NCBI GenBank assembly: GCA_937872895.1
Contig: CALMUP010000019.1
Location: 1 to 64,000, forward strand
Direction: 5' to 3'
From: an uncultured Verrucomicrobiota bacterium
GTDB lineage: Bacteria > Verrucomicrobiota > Kiritimatiellia > CAIVKH01
Length of the DNA: 64,000 nucleotides
A program made the translations under genes and the position numbers. The stretch's first letter is position 1, and each line of letters starts with the position of its first letter. The notes beneath the pieces were generated by a model. That model saw nothing but the letters and a program-made list of their open reading frames with translations, did not search any database and had not been told where the DNA came from. Of this stretch, positions 6,558 to 15,938 are shown piece by piece.

Positions 6558-7493
6558 ATGAAACAAGGATGGATGCAGGTGGTGGCCGTCGCGTTGACGG
6601 CGATGCTCGCGGTTCCGATGCCGGTGCACGCGGAAAAGGGCGGCCCGATCAAGATCAATCACACACCGGTGACCTGGGCGGTAAAAGGGCAGTCATTAAC
6701 CCTGAAAGCGCGTGTTTCCGGAGGTGTTGGCGGGATCGAAAGCGTCACCTTGTATTACGCCCTGTTCCGCGATGCCGCCCCGTTCCGCGTGGTCATGGTT
6801 TCCTCGGGCATGGACACCTACGTCGGCACCATCGAATCGGGCCTGCTCTCGGGCGTCGAGCACGTCTCGTACTACATCGAGGCGCAGGACAAGGAAGGCA
6901 CGATCGAGGAAACTCCTTGGTATGATGTCAAATTCAAGAACCCGGACGTGGCGCCGGCCGCGCGTGGCGGATCCTCCACCGGCGGGAAAACGGCGGCCCC
7001 TCCGGGTCAAGAGGACGGGTCATCGGCCCTTACCATCGGCTTGATCGCCGGCGGCGCAGCTGCCATCGCTGCCGGTGCATACTTCCTGTCCGACAGCGGC
7101 GGTTCCGACGACGGCGACGGAGGTGGTGGCGGAGGCGGTGGTGGCAACACCGTGACCAATGCGGGTAATTATGCGGGCAATTCGACCTTGTGCCGCAGCG
7201 CGGCGGGCGGCACCCAGTGCGAAACCACCTCGGCCACGTTCGTGATTGATTCCTCGGGCAAGATTTTTTCCGACACCTTGTCGCCAGGCCGTTCCCTTAC
7301 CGGCACCCTCTCCGGCAACGACTTCTCGCTGGTTGCCGACGTCACCGGTTCGCAGGAAGGCTTGACCGGCACCGTGGTGTACAGTGGCACCGTGATTAAC
7401 GGCTCACGCATCATCGGCACGATCACCGGCAACTACGACCAGTTCGGTGTGCCCGGCACCTTCTCCGGAACCTTTTCGGCCACCCGCCAGTAA
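6558..7493 (+). CDS. Secreted protein of unknown function with glycine-rich linker
   Basis: 311 residues. A signal peptide (1-25, ending VHA) precedes an N-terminal immunoglobulin-like region (about 30-130), an alanine-rich hydrophobic segment that may span the membrane (about 155-180), an acidic Gly/Asp-rich linker ending in nine glycines (about 183-200), and a C-terminal beta-rich domain (about 205-311) with alternating Gly/Thr/Ser strands that resemble a small lipocalin- or adhesin-like barrel. I do not recognise a family. The two domains look like an anchored envelope protein with an exposed beta domain. It lies 48 bp after the exporter operon and could be co-transcribed. Confidence 0.7.
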   Translation: MKQGWMQVVAVALTAMLAVPMPVHAEKGGPIKINHTPVTWAVKGQSLTLKARVSGGVGGIESVTLYYALFRDAAPFRVVMVSSGMDTYVGTIESGLLSGVEHVSYYIEAQDKEGTIEETPWYDVKFKNPDVAPAARGGSSTGGKTAAPPGQEDGSSALTIGLIAGGAAAIAAGAYFLSDSGGSDDGDGGGGGGGGGNTVTNAGNYAGNSTLCRSAAGGTQCETTSATFVIDSSGKIFSDTLSPGRSLTGTLSGNDFSLVADVTGSQEGLTGTVVYSGTVINGSRIIGTITGNYDQFGVPGTFSGTFSATRQ

Positions 7494-8694: not shown

Positions 8695-11600
8695 TCACTT
8701 GCGCGGGGCGCTGGAATACCACCAGGCATTCCAACGGGCGATATCGCTGCCGAAGGACATTCCGGAGAGTGACTCGAGCGCCTTCCCGGCGGCCCTCTTC
8801 TCGTTCGGAAAGGGTGATTTCTCTTCCAGGATGGTGAGTAACACCGGAATGCCCTCCGGATCCCCGATGTTTTCAAGCGCCGTAATGGTTTCATGGCACG
8901 GCCAGCCAGTGCGATCTTGGCGGACAAGCTCGGCCAGGATGGGGACGAAACGGGGCAGAGGAATGCGGTCGCGCACCAGCTTGACCGCACAGGAAGGTGT
9001 CCATGCATTCATGGTTTCGTCCTGGCTGAACGAGCGATCATGTTCATCAACCAGAATGCGCCGCTCAACTAGCTGAAGGGCATCGAGATCACCGGAGAGA
9101 CAGAGGCTGATAAATTCCTCGTTGTATGGAGAAGCCTTGCGCCATGCCCCTCCCTCCTTGATCTCGGCCAGGGCTGCGTGATCGCCCGCAGCGGCGAGTA
9201 CGGTCAGCACCTCGGTGCGGCAGTCATCCTGCATATACGGCAATTCCCGTCGAAGCGCGGCAACCGCAGTCTCGGCGGGAGCCAGGTCCAGCACGGCGCG
9301 AGCGGCAACGACGGATAGCCCGCAATCCCCAAGGTGGTTGTGCAGGAGTTTCGCCATGGACTCGATGTCCTTTGACCAGCGCATCTGTACCAGATGACCG
9401 AGTACCCTCCGGATGAAGTCACTGGAGCCGTATTCCGCGAAGGAAAAAAGCCGGGCGGCCAGGGATTCACCGCATACGGCAACAAGCGCATCCAGGGCGG
9501 CAATCCGAATGAAATCATCCTGCATCACACCCCCGGTTCGCATGATGTCGAGCAGCCGGGCCACCCCATCCGCCCCCTGATCACCGGAAGCTAGCGCGTC
9601 TATCTCGGCAAGCAATTGTTCGCGCGCATCCACGATCGGAACGGGTGGCGCAACCGGGACCGCGACATGACGCGTGATGCGATCCGGCCCGAACGGGATG
9701 TACCCGGGAATTCGCCCCATCTGTTCGACGCGAAGGACGAGCGGATCAAGGGTTTCAACAAGCAACTCAACCGGCTCCATTTCAACGTTGCGATCAGGCG
9801 GGGCACCTTCCGGAGGCAACCAGGACTGCACCAGGCCAGACGACACATCAAGGACCGTCACATCGCCAAATACACTGGCGACATACAACCGACCACCATC
9901 GTGAAGGGGAATGCCCACCGGGCCCCAGAAGTCACGCCGCCAGCGAAGTTCACCGGAGTTCCGATCAAAGGCAAACACGACACCGTTTTCCAGGCTGGGA
10001 ACAACAACCAGCCCGCCCGTCTCGACCACGGACTGCGCGATCGCCGAGCGGACCGATGCGGCTCCGCGGTAGAGGACCCGGCGCGTCACCCACGCCCTGG
10101 CAATGTCGCGCCGAATTATGAGTTCAATCGAATTGGTCCAGGCGGGATGACCGGATGGATCCACGAAACGCAGCAGGTTGTCGGGAGAAACCGTCCATGA
10201 TGGCGCAGGGGACAGGCTCTGCGGGGCCACATCAACCACCACGGAAGCGGGAGTACCGGCTTTTGCTGCCGGATTGGACCGCGACATCGACCGAAGGAAT
10301 TGCCTGGCTTGCGCAACCAAAAACCGGGTCTCGGGTGATGCTGCTTCCATCGATGCCAGGCGCTGAAACAACGCCTCGCTTTCCACCCGGCGGCCTTTGC
10401 GGTAGAGCAGCAACCCGACGGTCTCCATGGCTTTCAGGCGGCCCAGGGTAGGTTCACCCGCTTCAGCCTCGCCCTCCATGCGTTCAAGTACCGACATCGC
10501 CGCATCGACCGATCCGATTCGCCCGGCAGCCATGATCGCTGCAGCCAACACCGGTGACGGGAGCGATGCCTCCTGAATGGCCCGGAACGCCTTGAGCGCT
10601 TGGTGGGGGCGCTTCTCGGCCAGAGCCACAACCATGGCGGAACCGATGTGTTCGCGATACTGCGCCCACTCCGGCAAGACCATGTACCGCACCAAGGCGG
10701 CATAGGCCGGGCCGAGCGGGTCACGTCCTCGGGCATCCTGCTCCATGCAGGCGACCAGACACTCGATCGCCGCAGATGCCTGGCCTGCTCCTTCAAGCAG
10801 GAGGCCTTTCTTGTAGCTCGGATCCGCGACGGCGAGAACATCCATGGCTTCTTGAATCCTGCCTGCTTCAATCAGGGCCGTGGCCAGTTCCTCGCGGGCG
10901 CGTGATTGAGCAGGGCGGTCAACCAGGTGGTTGATCGCTGCGGACCACGTCGCCATGACATCGTTCGTCCGACCCATTGCGGCATACGTGGTGGCGATTG
11001 CGCGATCAAACGCCCAGGTATTTCCGCTTTCGCGTGAACGAGCGAGTCCCTGATACAGGGCGGAGAGCGCATCCTCGAGTCGACCCTCCTTGGCTAAAAG
11101 CTGTCCCACGAGAAGAAAATGGTCAGGCGTACCGGAATCCAGGAAAGCAGCGGTTTGCGCCTGCCCGAGATCCATTGGATCACTGGTCAGCCCGATGGCT
11201 TCTCGTTCTCGCAGCCGAGCGGAGCCCGGATTGGATCCGGCACGCGAGACCACTCGCTCAAGTGCCGCCGCGACCTGCCGGCACAGCGCCATAGGATCAC
11301 GGGCATCGTCGATGACGGTAATCCATTGAAGGACTTGTCCGGTATCGGCATCGATCAACCGACCGGAGAAGAGCATAGCGTCCTCATCCACATCAACGTA
11401 TCCGGAGAGCACGGCATCCGCCCGCACCATGCGGCCGACCTCCAACATGGATGTTCCGGTGCGCCCGGCACTGAAACCGGCCTCCTTGAACAAGGCATCA
11501 ACCATCGCGCGATCCACCACACGCAACGATCGATTTTCCGACAACACAACCGTCATCATATCCGAAAGCGCCTCGGGGGAGATATGCGACGACGCGGCAT

Positions 11601-13677
11601 CCGAAAGCGGGACAAAGGGCGCCAGGACGATCATGTGTGCGCGATCCGTACCAGGTGCCGCCGCGCGCTCCATCGCGGCCAAACGCGGAAACCGGGAAAA
11701 CAGGCTTGATCGCACGATCGCGCTCAACTGATCCGGATCAGCCGTCGCGGCGGGAACACTGACCACCCGCAAACGCTCCGAATTGAGCAGGTCCTCCAAC
11801 CACACGTCCACATGTAAATCCAGCGCAACCATACGCTCGGCAAGGATCAGCCGGACATCGGCGAGGTCGGGAGCATCGGGACGCGGATCCGCATCAACCG
11901 CCGTAGCGAAGTCCTTCATCAACCGTTCACCCGCCAATTCGGCACCGGAATCACGCTCAACCAACACCGCCCAAGACTGGGCCTGCAACTCCGACATGAC
12001 CGCCCGCATCAGCGGCCGGAGCTTCACGCTGGATGCGGGACTCTGGACAACACCGACACGCAGCGGTTCGGGCGGGCCCGGAACAGCCGCCAGCGGAAAT
12101 TGTATTTTTTGATTCCCGAATGGCGCCCCCCCTTGCGGAGAACTCCCCCGCCCCGATGGATGCACGCTCACGGGAATCCCGCATGTGACCGAACCATGAT
12201 CCTCGAACCAGGCGGAAGCCTTTATCGTACCTTCGATCGACAAGGCATAATAAAAGGTGCTTCCATTGATGACATTCGTATCCGTGAACACACCGCTTCC
12301 CGCTGGCACCCGCCCGATGACGGTTCCCGTGGATAGGAATTCAGACGAGGCGCGATCCAGATCCACCTCCTCTTCAACCGCCCTCGACACAACAATGGTC
12401 GGCCCGGCTATCCAGTCATTCGTATCGTGGAGCGGAAGTTCCCAGCGGAGAACAACCCGGCCATCGCCGGACTCGGCCGTCATCGACAAAAACGTCGGCG
12501 GGGTCACGACATGTACGATGGATGTCTGCAGTTCGGCATCACGCGACCAGACGACGGCAATCTCATTGGAAACCGGGTTCCCGGCCAGCACGGAGTAGTT
12601 TGCGAAGATCAAGGATCGGTCATCGATCCGTCTCTCCCTTCCGCGAGGATCGGAAATGATCACCTGCTGCCAACGAACGTTCTTTGTCCCCGTGCTCACC
12701 GCAAAGGCGGCTTCCGGTGACGCGAAACCGAACCTCGGCTCGGTGAAGATGATGCTGGCCAGTGGTGCAAGAGCGTTGCGTGCCGACCGACCACCGGGCA
12801 TGTTGAGTGGCACCACGACGGAGGCGTCAACCCACGACCCGGATAGTCCCGACCCGGAATCCCAGGACTCCTTCCAGATTCGGCCATCAACATGCACCCT
12901 GACGTCCGGTTGATGCCCGACCTTGACGGGAAGGCTTACCCGATGCTCCCCCGGAGGCAACCGCACCAGCTCGGTCAGTCCACCCACCGTTACCCGCCCG
13001 AGCGGCTCGTACACTCCGGCAAAGGACCGTATGGTGGGCGGAATCGTTGCGTCGAGCACGAGGTATCCATGATTGTTGGTTGAAAGCGATGCCTTCACCA
13101 GGGGAGGTGCTTCAATGGCACACGGCAGCGACTCGGCCAGCAAGCCTCCTTTCGCATCCAGAAACCGCACTTGATAGTGTACCGTGCCGCCCGGAGGCGG
13201 GTTGACATCCCGGAGCATGAAGGTATGCGTTACCGGATGGTCAACATCTCCGGTCATTGCGTCGGCCTGATTCGATTGGTCCGAACGGGAAAGAAATCGT
13301 CGATCCTCGGCTTGAACCAGCGTGAAGGAATTCGTGCGACCGACTGCGGACGACCTCAGCAGCTCCACCGCAGCCGCCCCGGGAAAACAGGAGAGCCGTG
13401 ATCCCGGTCCTCGCGATACCGTGCTGACGGAAACCAAAACGAAGCGCTTGTCGGCCTGTTGCCTCAACCCGGCAGGTCCATGTTGCTCGCCAACCAGCCC
13501 GAGGCTGATCGACCAACGCTCCAGGTACGCACCAGCCGCCTCTTCGTCACCATAAGGCAACACGGGCTCGCTTGCCGCATCCCCGACCCGGTACTGGTGA
13601 ATCCGATGGACACTCCATGCGATACCGACACCGCACAGCAGCAGCACGATCGCTTTACCTGACCGGGACCGGACCAT
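8695..13677 (-). CDS. Giant envelope protein: CsgG-like, TPR, PQQ-like and HEAT regions
   Basis: 1660 residues from the ATG at 13677. In order: an N-terminal membrane anchor (about 9-21); a long beta-rich, Ig/fibronectin-like region (about 60-505); a first, degenerate CsgG-like domain (about 539-658, with LVERDSGAEL); a second clearer CsgG/FlgO-like domain (about 681-813, with VVDRAMVDALFKEAG and VGRMVRADAVLSGYVDVDED); TPR-like helical repeats (about 848-1133); two PQQ-type propeller strands (about 1213-1283, VVFAFDRNSGELRWRRD); and HEAT-like repeats to the end (about 1353-1658). CsgG-type domains act at the outer membrane; the rest are protein-binding scaffolds. It is the last gene of an operon whose previous gene encodes a separate CsgG-like protein. 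The function is unknown; a secretion or surface-assembly scaffold is an inference. Confidence 0.75.
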   Translation of the reverse strand: MVRSRSGKAIVLLLCGVGIAWSVHRIHQYRVGDAASEPVLPYGDEEAAGAYLERWSISLGLVGEQHGPAGLRQQADKRFVLVSVSTVSRGPGSRLSCFPGAAAVELLRSSAVGRTNSFTLVQAEDRRFLSRSDQSNQADAMTGDVDHPVTHTFMLRDVNPPPGGTVHYQVRFLDAKGGLLAESLPCAIEAPPLVKASLSTNNHGYLVLDATIPPTIRSFAGVYEPLGRVTVGGLTELVRLPPGEHRVSLPVKVGHQPDVRVHVDGRIWKESWDSGSGLSGSWVDASVVVPLNMPGGRSARNALAPLASIIFTEPRFGFASPEAAFAVSTGTKNVRWQQVIISDPRGRERRIDDRSLIFANYSVLAGNPVSNEIAVVWSRDAELQTSIVHVVTPPTFLSMTAESGDGRVVLRWELPLHDTNDWIAGPTIVVSRAVEEEVDLDRASSEFLSTGTVIGRVPAGSGVFTDTNVINGSTFYYALSIEGTIKASAWFEDHGSVTCGIPVSVHPSGRGSSPQGGAPFGNQKIQFPLAAVPGPPEPLRVGVVQSPASSVKLRPLMRAVMSELQAQSWAVLVERDSGAELAGERLMKDFATAVDADPRPDAPDLADVRLILAERMVALDLHVDVWLEDLLNSERLRVVSVPAATADPDQLSAIVRSSLFSRFPRLAAMERAAAPGTDRAHMIVLAPFVPLSDAASSHISPEALSDMMTVVLSENRSLRVVDRAMVDALFKEAGFSAGRTGTSMLEVGRMVRADAVLSGYVDVDEDAMLFSGRLIDADTGQVLQWITVIDDARDPMALCRQVAAALERVVSRAGSNPGSARLREREAIGLTSDPMDLGQAQTAAFLDSGTPDHFLLVGQLLAKEGRLEDALSALYQGLARSRESGNTWAFDRAIATTYAAMGRTNDVMATWSAAINHLVDRPAQSRAREELATALIEAGRIQEAMDVLAVADPSYKKGLLLEGAGQASAAIECLVACMEQDARGRDPLGPAYAALVRYMVLPEWAQYREHIGSAMVVALAEKRPHQALKAFRAIQEASLPSPVLAAAIMAAGRIGSVDAAMSVLERMEGEAEAGEPTLGRLKAMETVGLLLYRKGRRVESEALFQRLASMEAASPETRFLVAQARQFLRSMSRSNPAAKAGTPASVVVDVAPQSLSPAPSWTVSPDNLLRFVDPSGHPAWTNSIELIIRRDIARAWVTRRVLYRGAASVRSAIAQSVVETGGLVVVPSLENGVVFAFDRNSGELRWRRDFWGPVGIPLHDGGRLYVASVFGDVTVLDVSSGLVQSWLPPEGAPPDRNVEMEPVELLVETLDPLVLRVEQMGRIPGYIPFGPDRITRHVAVPVAPPVPIVDAREQLLAEIDALASGDQGADGVARLLDIMRTGGVMQDDFIRIAALDALVAVCGESLAARLFSFAEYGSSDFIRRVLGHLVQMRWSKDIESMAKLLHNHLGDCGLSVVAARAVLDLAPAETAVAALRRELPYMQDDCRTEVLTVLAAAGDHAALAEIKEGGAWRKASPYNEEFISLCLSGDLDALQLVERRILVDEHDRSFSQDETMNAWTPSCAVKLVRDRIPLPRFVPILAELVRQDRTGWPCHETITALENIGDPEGIPVLLTILEEKSPFPNEKRAAGKALESLSGMSFGSDIARWNAWWYSSAPRK

Positions 13678-13696
13678 GTCCGAATGCCAACCGTCC

Positions 13697-14629
13697 TTAC
13701 CGGCCCGCGATGACGGGCAGCAACCTTTCGGCAATACGCGCCGCCGCCTCCTGGAGCGCGGCCTTGCCGGCAATATGTTCCGTCAGATCAACGACAACGG
13801 CGGTCTGGCGGTCGATGGCGATTACCGTATTGTCGCGGCGGTTCACGGCCTGTAGTTCAACCCGGGCCTTGACGCTGACGAGGTTGCCCCTTCGCATGGC
13901 GAATTCGCTGATGCCTTCCCCCGTAATCACCACATCGGCTTGTTTTTCGCTCCCGGCTCCGGCGGCGATCACCTCGAATCCAACCTGCTTGCTCAGGAGC
14001 ACGAATTCCGTTTGCGCGGCCGGGTCGATGGTCGACTGACCGACATGCTGTTCCTTGATCGAAACCATCAACGTCGGCCTCTCGCCCTCGCCCAGCAGCG
14101 CCTTCAGGTTGGCGACCCGGTCAACTTCCGGAACGCGGGTGGCGACGATGGTCTTTCCCTTCGTTGCGATCGCCTCCGCCACCCGACCCGCCAAGGTCTC
14201 CACCAGCGGACCAAGTTCATCGCTCATGCCACCCTTTACCGACTCGGCCAACACGAGACTTGTTTCCGTGCCGATCATCTTGGCGATCAGGTAGATCGTG
14301 TTGTCCGTCTCGATGACCGATCCGGTGATCAGGATTTTCGCGCCAACAAGTTGTCCGACCTGAGCCGCCTGTCCCGGCGCCACCGCGCCGGACAGGTTCA
14401 ACTCCGCCTCCTGAAGCACCTGATTGATCGCTGAACGCTCGACCAGCCAGATCTCCGGATGGCCAGCCAGCTCGGCATAGAGGATATCAGCCACTTTGCC
14501 GGCATATCCAGCCACCGCCCGCCCACGCTCCTCGAAATTCAGGATGGCGGTTGGATACACCTCCTGACCTCGCAAAGACCCTGCCGCGAGGATTAACATG
14601 ATGATACACGACGCATTAATATGTTTCAT
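13697..14629 (-). CDS. Secreted CsgG/FlgO-like protein
   Basis: 310 residues. A signal peptide (about 1-20) is followed by a CsgG-like domain (about 22-165): AILNFEERG, the helix ending IWLVERSAINQVLQEAELN, and VGQLVGAKILITGSV. CsgG and FlgO relatives are outer-membrane or periplasmic assembly proteins. The C-terminal half (about 180-310) is another alpha/beta unit with VVITGEGISEF and an ending helix pair. A strong Shine-Dalgarno (AAGGAGG, 14638-14644) sits eight bases before the ATG, confirming this start. The start overlaps the end of the upstream gene by 14 bp. No lipobox cysteine is seen after the signal. Confidence 0.75.
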   Translation of the reverse strand: MKHINASCIIMLILAAGSLRGQEVYPTAILNFEERGRAVAGYAGKVADILYAELAGHPEIWLVERSAINQVLQEAELNLSGAVAPGQAAQVGQLVGAKILITGSVIETDNTIYLIAKMIGTETSLVLAESVKGGMSDELGPLVETLAGRVAEAIATKGKTIVATRVPEVDRVANLKALLGEGERPTLMVSIKEQHVGQSTIDPAAQTEFVLLSKQVGFEVIAAGAGSEKQADVVITGEGISEFAMRRGNLVSVKARVELQAVNRRDNTVIAIDRQTAVVVDLTEHIAGKAALQEAAARIAERLLPVIAGR

Positions 14630-15671
14630 GTGAGCCGCCTCCTTGTTTCCTTGATGGGTTTCCCGACAACATCTGTTCAAGCAGTCCGGCAAGCAGCCAC
14701 CGTGCGCAGGGACTTTGATCCCAGTGCCGTATGATGCCGAATCCGCCAACCACCAGTCTACCCTGATCGCCATAACACATCTCAACCCATGCCCAACCGG
14801 ATTGTCCGGGCAATACGCGCGCCATCACCGATTGACGGAAGCTATCCACTTCGATGGATGAAACAACCGATGGGATACCGGGCGCCCAGAGGGCGGTATC
14901 CAGTCGTTTATCGATCTCCCTGATGGCTTCCTCCCGACGGAATATCATGGCGTCGGGAGGCACACCGCCCTGCGATCGTGTTCCCGGAAGAATGAACTCC
15001 CCTTCGCTCGGGGCGAGACACAACACGCGATTCCCGTTGATCGCACACTCGATCATGGCTTCAGCCAGTCCACGGTACTCATGGAACGAAACGCCTTCTC
15101 CGACCACGATCAACCCGTCCGCATGGAGCAGGTCATCGGGTCGGTGCAAACGGCGGTACGGAATACGGGACGAATCCAAGATGACTGCCGTTTGGCCAAC
15201 AGGATCAAAGAGCGACAAGGGTTGCGTGATCAACCGGGACGTGCGTCCCTCGAATGGGTCGAAGGGATAAGCCTTGATCATTCGTTCGATCGACGTTTCT
15301 CCAAGCACAACCTGCAAGGTCCAGGACATGACGACCCCGGGTTTGACGGGCGGAAGATCGAACGACACCGGGGTGGGTCCGTCACGCCGCACCATCACTT
15401 CGCCTCGCGCCACGCTGGATGATTCCGCGGAGAGTCGCCAGCCGAGGTGCGTCCCGTCCGGGTGCTCGCCGGCGACCAGCACATTCACCACCGCCGCTTG
15501 TCCGGCAAAGAATCCCGCATAGGCATCAGCAAAGCGGATCCTGGACGGGTACGGTTCCGCACGGACTCCTTGCAGCACCACCGCAACAACGATGAGCATG
15601 GGGCGAAGAATATGCGCCATGATACAACCAACCCATCCAGCGCGCTCGTGTGAGCGATGTGATTTCCTCAA
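14616..15671 (-). CDS. Secreted protein of unknown function, first gene of CsgG operon
   Basis: 351 residues if it begins at the TTG at 15671, which has AGGAGG (15677-15682) five bases upstream; an ATG start at 15620 (334 residues) has no Shine-Dalgarno. Both give a hydrophobic signal segment ending near GVRAEP. A beta-sandwich-like region (about 60-160) is followed by an alpha/beta region where DGLIVVGEGVSFHEYRGL and a neighbouring strand NRVLCLAPSEGEF resemble the fold of glutamine-amidotransferase-like domains, but no catalytic Cys-His pair is evident. The protein ends GGGSHETY, overlapping the CsgG-like gene. No family is recognised. Confidence 0.65.
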   Translation of the reverse strand: MRKSHRSHERAGWVGCIMAHILRPMLIVVAVVLQGVRAEPYPSRIRFADAYAGFFAGQAAVVNVLVAGEHPDGTHLGWRLSAESSSVARGEVMVRRDGPTPVSFDLPPVKPGVVMSWTLQVVLGETSIERMIKAYPFDPFEGRTSRLITQPLSLFDPVGQTAVILDSSRIPYRRLHRPDDLLHADGLIVVGEGVSFHEYRGLAEAMIECAINGNRVLCLAPSEGEFILPGTRSQGGVPPDAMIFRREEAIREIDKRLDTALWAPGIPSVVSSIEVDSFRQSVMARVLPGQSGWAWVEMCYGDQGRLVVGGFGIIRHWDQSPCARWLLAGLLEQMLSGNPSRKQGGGSHETY

Positions 15672-15938
15672 TGCGGCCTCCTGCCGCTGCTGCCAGCATG
15701 CGCGGACCATGACCTCGCGTCAACATTCACTTGCGCGCCGAGACAACGTGATGGATTCCCCTGTTTAGGCCTAGGCGGACCGATAACCGGAAATGATACA
15801 GGGAACTACTGACGGATTGCATGATGCTGCCGAGACCAGATCGCGCATCACGGCAAGGCGGTTGTGGTTCCCGCCCATCGTTTTCCGGCTTGGGTGCGCG
15901 GGGGATCGGGTGTACAACGGGACGCGAGGAGCATGACC
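15672..15938. other. Divergent intergenic region between the CsgG operon and the exonuclease gene
   Basis: A 267-bp gap between divergent genes. On the minus side a TTGACG hexamer (around 15720) with no convincing -10 is the best candidate for the CsgG operon. On the plus side TTGGGT, 17 nt and TACAAC lie just before the Shine-Dalgarno of 15939. No coding sequence or structured RNA is evident. Confidence 0.4.

Follow-up and report, generated by a model that had tools for sequence, protein, structure and literature searches.

What a 1660-residue giant, a stand-alone CsgG-like protein and an exported protein of a function-unknown family might do together is the question raised by one locus in a 64,000-nucleotide window (the whole stretch of DNA analysed) from an uncultured Verrucomicrobiota bacterium. 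Judged from the ORF positions, the three genes form a tightly packed operon on the minus strand (8695-15620): the P0003 and P0002 genes overlap by 14 nt, and P0002 is separated from P0001 by 19 nt. The ATG of P0003 lies at 15620, and position 15671 is a TTG further upstream. Each of the predicted products starts with a hydrophobic segment for export or anchoring. RNA genes and tRNA were looked for near the operon and none was found.

The middle gene (13697..14629, minus strand) encodes P0002, a CsgG-like protein of 310 aa with a signal peptide. An earlier note on this DNA had read it as a stand-alone CsgG-like protein, and the match to CsgG (PF03783, 35.7 bits for a cut-off of 20.8) agrees, stopping at model position 102 of 210. 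The match to LpoB (PF13036) reaches 17.2 bits, below the cut-off of 22.3. Among the family members scanned, with E values up to 1, a CsgG match was found in all 24, an LpoB-family match in 18 and a TolB_N match in six. The window P0002 carries no lipobox and the family has none consistently, since any match at all occurs in 7 of 78 relatives and lies mostly inside the hydrophobic core. Two candidates for the second half of the protein were rejected. A second CsgG domain gave weak, scattered matches and only 1-10% in the profile comparison, and an LptE-like match was seen in only two of the 24 members.

The giant, P0001 (8695..13677, minus strand), has a hydrophobic segment at its N-terminus (signal or anchor), a head made of two CsgG-like domains in tandem, and a tail rich in repeats. 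The two head domains span aa 533-671 (11665..12081, minus strand) and aa 695-809 (11251..11595, minus strand; profile E 4e-19). The Pfam matches of P0001 to CsgG, FlgO and HEAT_2 are all below cut-off. A profile made from the first domain of other giants, and built without P0001, matched aa 533-671 (E 8.6e-10 on the isolated domain) and aa 698-819 (E 3.7e-18), and the homologue L046 has both domains as well (E 5e-11 and 1e-21). The P0002 domain and the giant-head domains are related to each other (hhalign 97-99%). An AlphaFold model of aa 528-830 (pLDDT 78, pTM 0.61) shows two beta-alpha-beta-alpha-beta-beta-beta-alpha units, of which the first is less confident than the second. Foldseek matched this model to TolB, LpoB, PelC and CsgG (E 4e-6 to 5e-4), and also to FlgT and GNA1162, with TolB and LpoB at the top (TM 0.70 by target for LpoB). 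The V-[ED]-R motif that the earlier note had seen in all three CsgG-like units holds across 50 giants: in domain 1 the R and a later E never vary, and in domain 2 both are more than 90% conserved. Both additional CsgG-like domains of P0001 are real.

The tail carries a TPR region (about aa 855-1110; 10348..11115, minus strand), where TPR_14 and TPR_19 rise above cut-off once aa 835-1160 are scanned alone, followed by PQQ/BamB-type strands of a partial propeller (aa 1168-1283; 9829..10176, minus strand; PQQ_2 PF13360, 35.1 bits, cut-off 27.6). At its C-terminus are HEAT repeats (aa 1578-1634; 8776..8946, minus strand), for which HEAT_2 reaches E 6e-5 on the fragment scanned alone and stays below cut-off. 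All three parts had been recognised in the earlier note, as had the operon and the CsgG-like tandem. An FN3-like stretch precedes the head (aa 396-515; 12133..12492, minus strand); it was seen by eye, its pattern is kept in L046 and L094, the only close relatives of P0001, and a Pfam scan of the stretch gave no match. A second tandem-CsgG giant of the window's own genome, a stand-alone protein of 1022 aa with TPRs, is encoded away from the operon (L150:6374-9442, that is C51:52373-55441, minus strand).

The CsgG/TolB/LpoB fold is part of several key envelope machines in well-studied bacteria, and its members include ring-formers (CsgG, PelC, FlgT) as well as partner-binders (LpoB, TolB). A periplasmic hub role is therefore reasonable for P0002, although not proven. 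The proteins nearest to the head, namely the TolB N-terminal domain, LpoB, PelC, GNA1162 and FlgO/FlgT, belong, as single proteins, to machines of the wall, Tol, polysaccharide or flagellar kind; the head of the giant shares their fold, but is doubled and followed by variable tails. Because TolB-N, LpoB and PelC are among these nearest folds, a CsgG-like fold alone is not indicative of secretion. Outer-membrane secretion or attachment, drawn from the analogy with CsgG, is thus not supported: these other folds are also among the nearest, the lipobox is not consistent, and CsgE and CsgF are absent from all six genomes searched, the window's own included, with a positive E. coli control. A curli system was rejected on the absence of CsgE and CsgF, and no curli subunits are adjacent to P0002.

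It is conceivable that P0002 is nevertheless a CsgG-like outer-membrane export channel, with the giants or P0003 as cargo or gate. The CsgG match in every family member scanned, with the window protein above cut-off, and the Foldseek matches of the giant head to CsgG structures are in line with such a channel. However, the partial model match, the lack of a consistent lipobox, the missing CsgE and CsgF and the scaffold-like rather than curli-like character of the giants make this reading quite improbable. Since P0002 lacks a lipobox and both accessory proteins are absent, secretion by P0002 is unlikely. The same fold matches could also be read as cell-wall regulation, in which P0002 and the giant heads would bind wall synthases or parts of Tol-Pal under stress, as LpoB and TolB do. 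The LpoB-family and TolB_N matches of the P0002 family point this way, as does the top rank of TolB and LpoB for the giant head, but the sequence matches are mostly weak, the window P0002 falls short of the LpoB cut-off, and the conserved neighbourhood showed no gene for wall synthesis, so that we regard this role as unlikely.

The first gene (14616..15620, minus strand) encodes P0003, an exported protein of 334 aa. Its AlphaFold model, made with 57 sequences, is of high quality (pLDDT 93.5, pTM 0.90) and shows an Ig-like beta-sandwich and, after it, an alpha/beta (Rossmann-like) domain. Nothing in Pfam matched P0003 above cut-off; family members have weak matches to LacZ_4 and DUF4350, the latter in four of 57. 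The alpha/beta fold of the C-terminal half and these DUF4350 matches recall DUF4350/GATase-like proteins, but in P0003 this half is fused to an Ig-like domain and the matches are all weak. A known enzyme was rejected, as there is no full-length PDB match and only Ig-like and beta-galactosidase domains were matched.

The trio recurs in related genomes. P0003 has homologues in 20 of 116 genomes of the class, and strong P0002 matches occur in 26 of 289 genomes of the phylum. P0002 is the most conserved gene of the set (43-59% identity to 19 relatives). A scan of GTDB gave 141 relatives of P0002, 80 of which were kept; they fall in Kiritimatiellota, Lentisphaerota, Planctomycetota and Verrucomicrobiota, apart from outliers in Gilvimarinus, Colwellia, Desulfobacteria and Omnitrophota. 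The conserved order is an ECF sigma factor, a single-pass membrane protein, P0003, P0002 and then one or two giants. At testable loci, the P0003 family lies directly upstream of the P0002 family in 58 of 65, and a protein with a CsgG domain just downstream of P0002 in 51 of 65 (in 42 of 65 it has at least two such domains); the sigma gene is found upstream in 27 of 44, the membrane-protein gene in 25 of 44, and no sigma gene was called near by in 17 of 44. The counts of genes found come from a simple gene caller and so are probably lower bounds. The earlier note had named a fold other than CsgG/FlgO in the head, or a trio not conserved in related genomes, as grounds against its proposal; a CsgG-type fold was found and the order of the trio is conserved, so neither ground is present.

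An iterated profile of the P0002 family showed tandem domains in most giants of the related loci, and a CsgG match with an E value of at most 0.01 was obtained for 26 of 38 giants. The head is the only part that the giants have in common. Their tails vary widely and comprise TPR, ankyrin, FG-GAP and HEAT repeats, propellers of the PQQ and WD40 type, FGE-sulfatase, 3-keto-disaccharide hydrolase and DUF4350 domains. One head joined to so many unrelated tails is a pattern that deserves explanation.

Several loci depart from the common layout. In a 507-aa module protein (L086:7665-9188), a single CsgG-like domain is combined with TPRs and with DUF1266 (E 1e-32), which was not seen among the domains listed for other giants. 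In a genome of Verrucomicrobia subdivision 3 (L122, about 3.5-9.7 kb), the sigma, membrane-protein, P0003 and first P0002 genes are followed by several more P0002-family copies in a row, and there are smaller tandem duplications in L086, L125 and L131. The gammaproteobacterial copies from Gilvimarinus (L099) and Colwellia (L119) have FG-GAP tails and no linked sigma gene; they group with a Desulfobacteraceae copy in the P0002 tree, which suggests transfer across phyla.

The sigma factors of the relatives are of the ECF type, with Sigma70_r2 and r4_2 above cut-off and only those regions. The co-encoded membrane protein has exactly one transmembrane segment in 33 of 33 cases, after about 45-87 residues. 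This layout is like that of membrane-bound anti-sigma factors (PMC8999054), and by that likeness the protein is a probable anti-sigma factor; it differs from known anti-sigma factors in that no anti-sigma family in Pfam matched it.

Nearly every module sigma gene is preceded by the promoter motif AAGA-N16-GTCTAA. When spaced word pairs were counted upstream of 35 sigma genes, they were shared by up to nine regions, compared with at most three in shuffles. The refined motif, CaAAGATTTt and GTCTAAt with AAGA 21 nt before TCTA, is present in 34 of the 35 upstream regions, and 29 of the 35 score 10 or more, compared with 3, 4 and 7 in the reversed, shuffled and reverse-complement controls (the set contains no near-identical upstream pairs). 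As the matrix was trained on the sigma upstream regions, its independent support comes from this comparison and from a scan over 1.08 Mb, in which the motif also directly precedes four unlinked giants with a CsgG tandem and some of the genes for P0002, P0003 and the membrane protein. The strict pattern gave 13 matches in 13 genomes, of which about eight are at module sigma genes or giants and the rest look like chance. The sequence differs from the typical ECF promoter pattern, AAC/CGT (PMC8103513). The position of the motif suggests that the operon may be autoregulated, as other ECF sigma operons are. One genome has a further sigma gene of this family outside its main module (L166:36-627, G106:C99), and the same motif lies just upstream of it.

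Hence, the relatives point to an apparently undescribed gene set that is widespread in PVC bacteria and usually headed by its own sigma factor. In the literature searched, no paper joined CsgG with an ECF sigma factor in Planctomycetes or with Kiritimatiellota; a 2012 planctomycete survey lay outside the scope of this search. The parts belong to known superfamilies and it is their combination that appears undescribed, for which a prior mention is possible. Of the two functions offered in the earlier note, stress sensing was well guessed, given that in relatives the genes of an ECF sigma and of a probable anti-sigma factor stand at the head of the operon, together with a common promoter motif; a role in secretion or attachment at the outer membrane, as for CsgG, is not supported. 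The sigma connection was not part of that note, nor were the FN3-like stretch, the variable tails and the detachment of the window copy from the sigma system.

In the window, the sigma and membrane-protein genes and the promoter are missing. The region in which relatives have them (15621..15863, minus strand) contains none, and neither gene adjoins the trio. A search of the window's own genome found no homologue of the membrane protein, while the same search scored in seven control genomes. The best promoter-matrix score in the window, 12.8 bits, lies elsewhere than at the operon (relatives mostly score 15-32), and the strict pattern has no match in the own genome. The five ECF sigma factors of this genome were rejected as the missing partner, being distant and none of them beside a P0003-, P0002- or membrane-protein-like gene. 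In the P0002 tree, sigma-free and sigma-linked copies are interspersed, and the window copy falls among sigma-linked ones with moderate support (88/86).

The codon usage of the operon looks foreign. GC3 is 0.67 for P0001, 0.74 for P0002 and 0.64 for P0003, compared with 0.89-0.91 in the neighbouring genes and a mean of 0.85 (sd 0.05) in a sample of 49 genes that favours typical codon usage. The foreign composition may partly reflect low expression. The other sampled members of the genus and family have no P0003 match and no strong P0002 match; no clean empty site could be shown in a sister species, because the flanks are not syntenic there. The missing sigma, membrane protein and promoter together with this codon usage mark a sigma-free, probably imported copy, and composition, absence of the pair and lack of matches in relatives suggest that the trio was acquired horizontally without the sigma pair, or lost the pair afterwards.

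This bears on the possibility that the giants, through their tails, are sensors feeding the membrane protein, so that the operon would be mainly for signalling instead of making a structural or repair product. The gene order places the giants in line with the sigma and the membrane protein, and ligand binding is conceivable for tails with propellers, TPRs, FN3-like parts or enzymes. However, the window trio has been kept with no such sigma or membrane protein to signal to, as have some other sigma-free copies, and we consider a mainly sensory operon improbable.

We prefer to read the trio as one copy, without its sigma, of an envelope module that is widespread and would provide a periplasmic hub, induced by the sigma, for interchangeable giants, and give this reading an even chance. 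In the module as it may work in relatives, the single-pass membrane protein would hold the ECF sigma until an envelope signal leads to its release. The free sigma would then transcribe its own operon and the scattered giant genes from AAGA-N16-GTCTAA, and P0003, P0002 and the giants would be exported. P0002 would serve as the common hub in the periplasm and would probably form oligomers, as other proteins with this fold do; on this hub the giants may dock through their tandem CsgG-like heads and so present their interchangeable TPR, ankyrin, HEAT, propeller or enzyme tails. P0003, to judge from its conserved position, would be a near-obligate periplasmic partner. The window set, having probably been acquired without the sigma pair or having lost it, would run from another promoter.

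More tentatively, and with some doubt, the module could represent a new multi-phylum envelope-response system, with a dedicated sigma factor, a CsgG-like hub and swappable giants that combine a docking head with sensor or effector tails. If so, lineages would customise one response by exchanging giants. To our knowledge, little is known of envelope stress responses in Planctomycetota, Verrucomicrobiota and Kiritimatiellota, and a conserved sigma with a recognisable promoter and fixed exported partners offers a direct, testable entry to them: the regulon can be predicted from the promoter, and the member giants from the tandem head.

Outside the operon, the window encodes a glycine-rich secreted protein (6558-7493). 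Over its N-terminal 120 aa it shares 35% identity with the product of a gene in another genome of the family (L159:4662-5663); that gene lies some 0.5 kb downstream of two genes with a weak likeness to CsgG.
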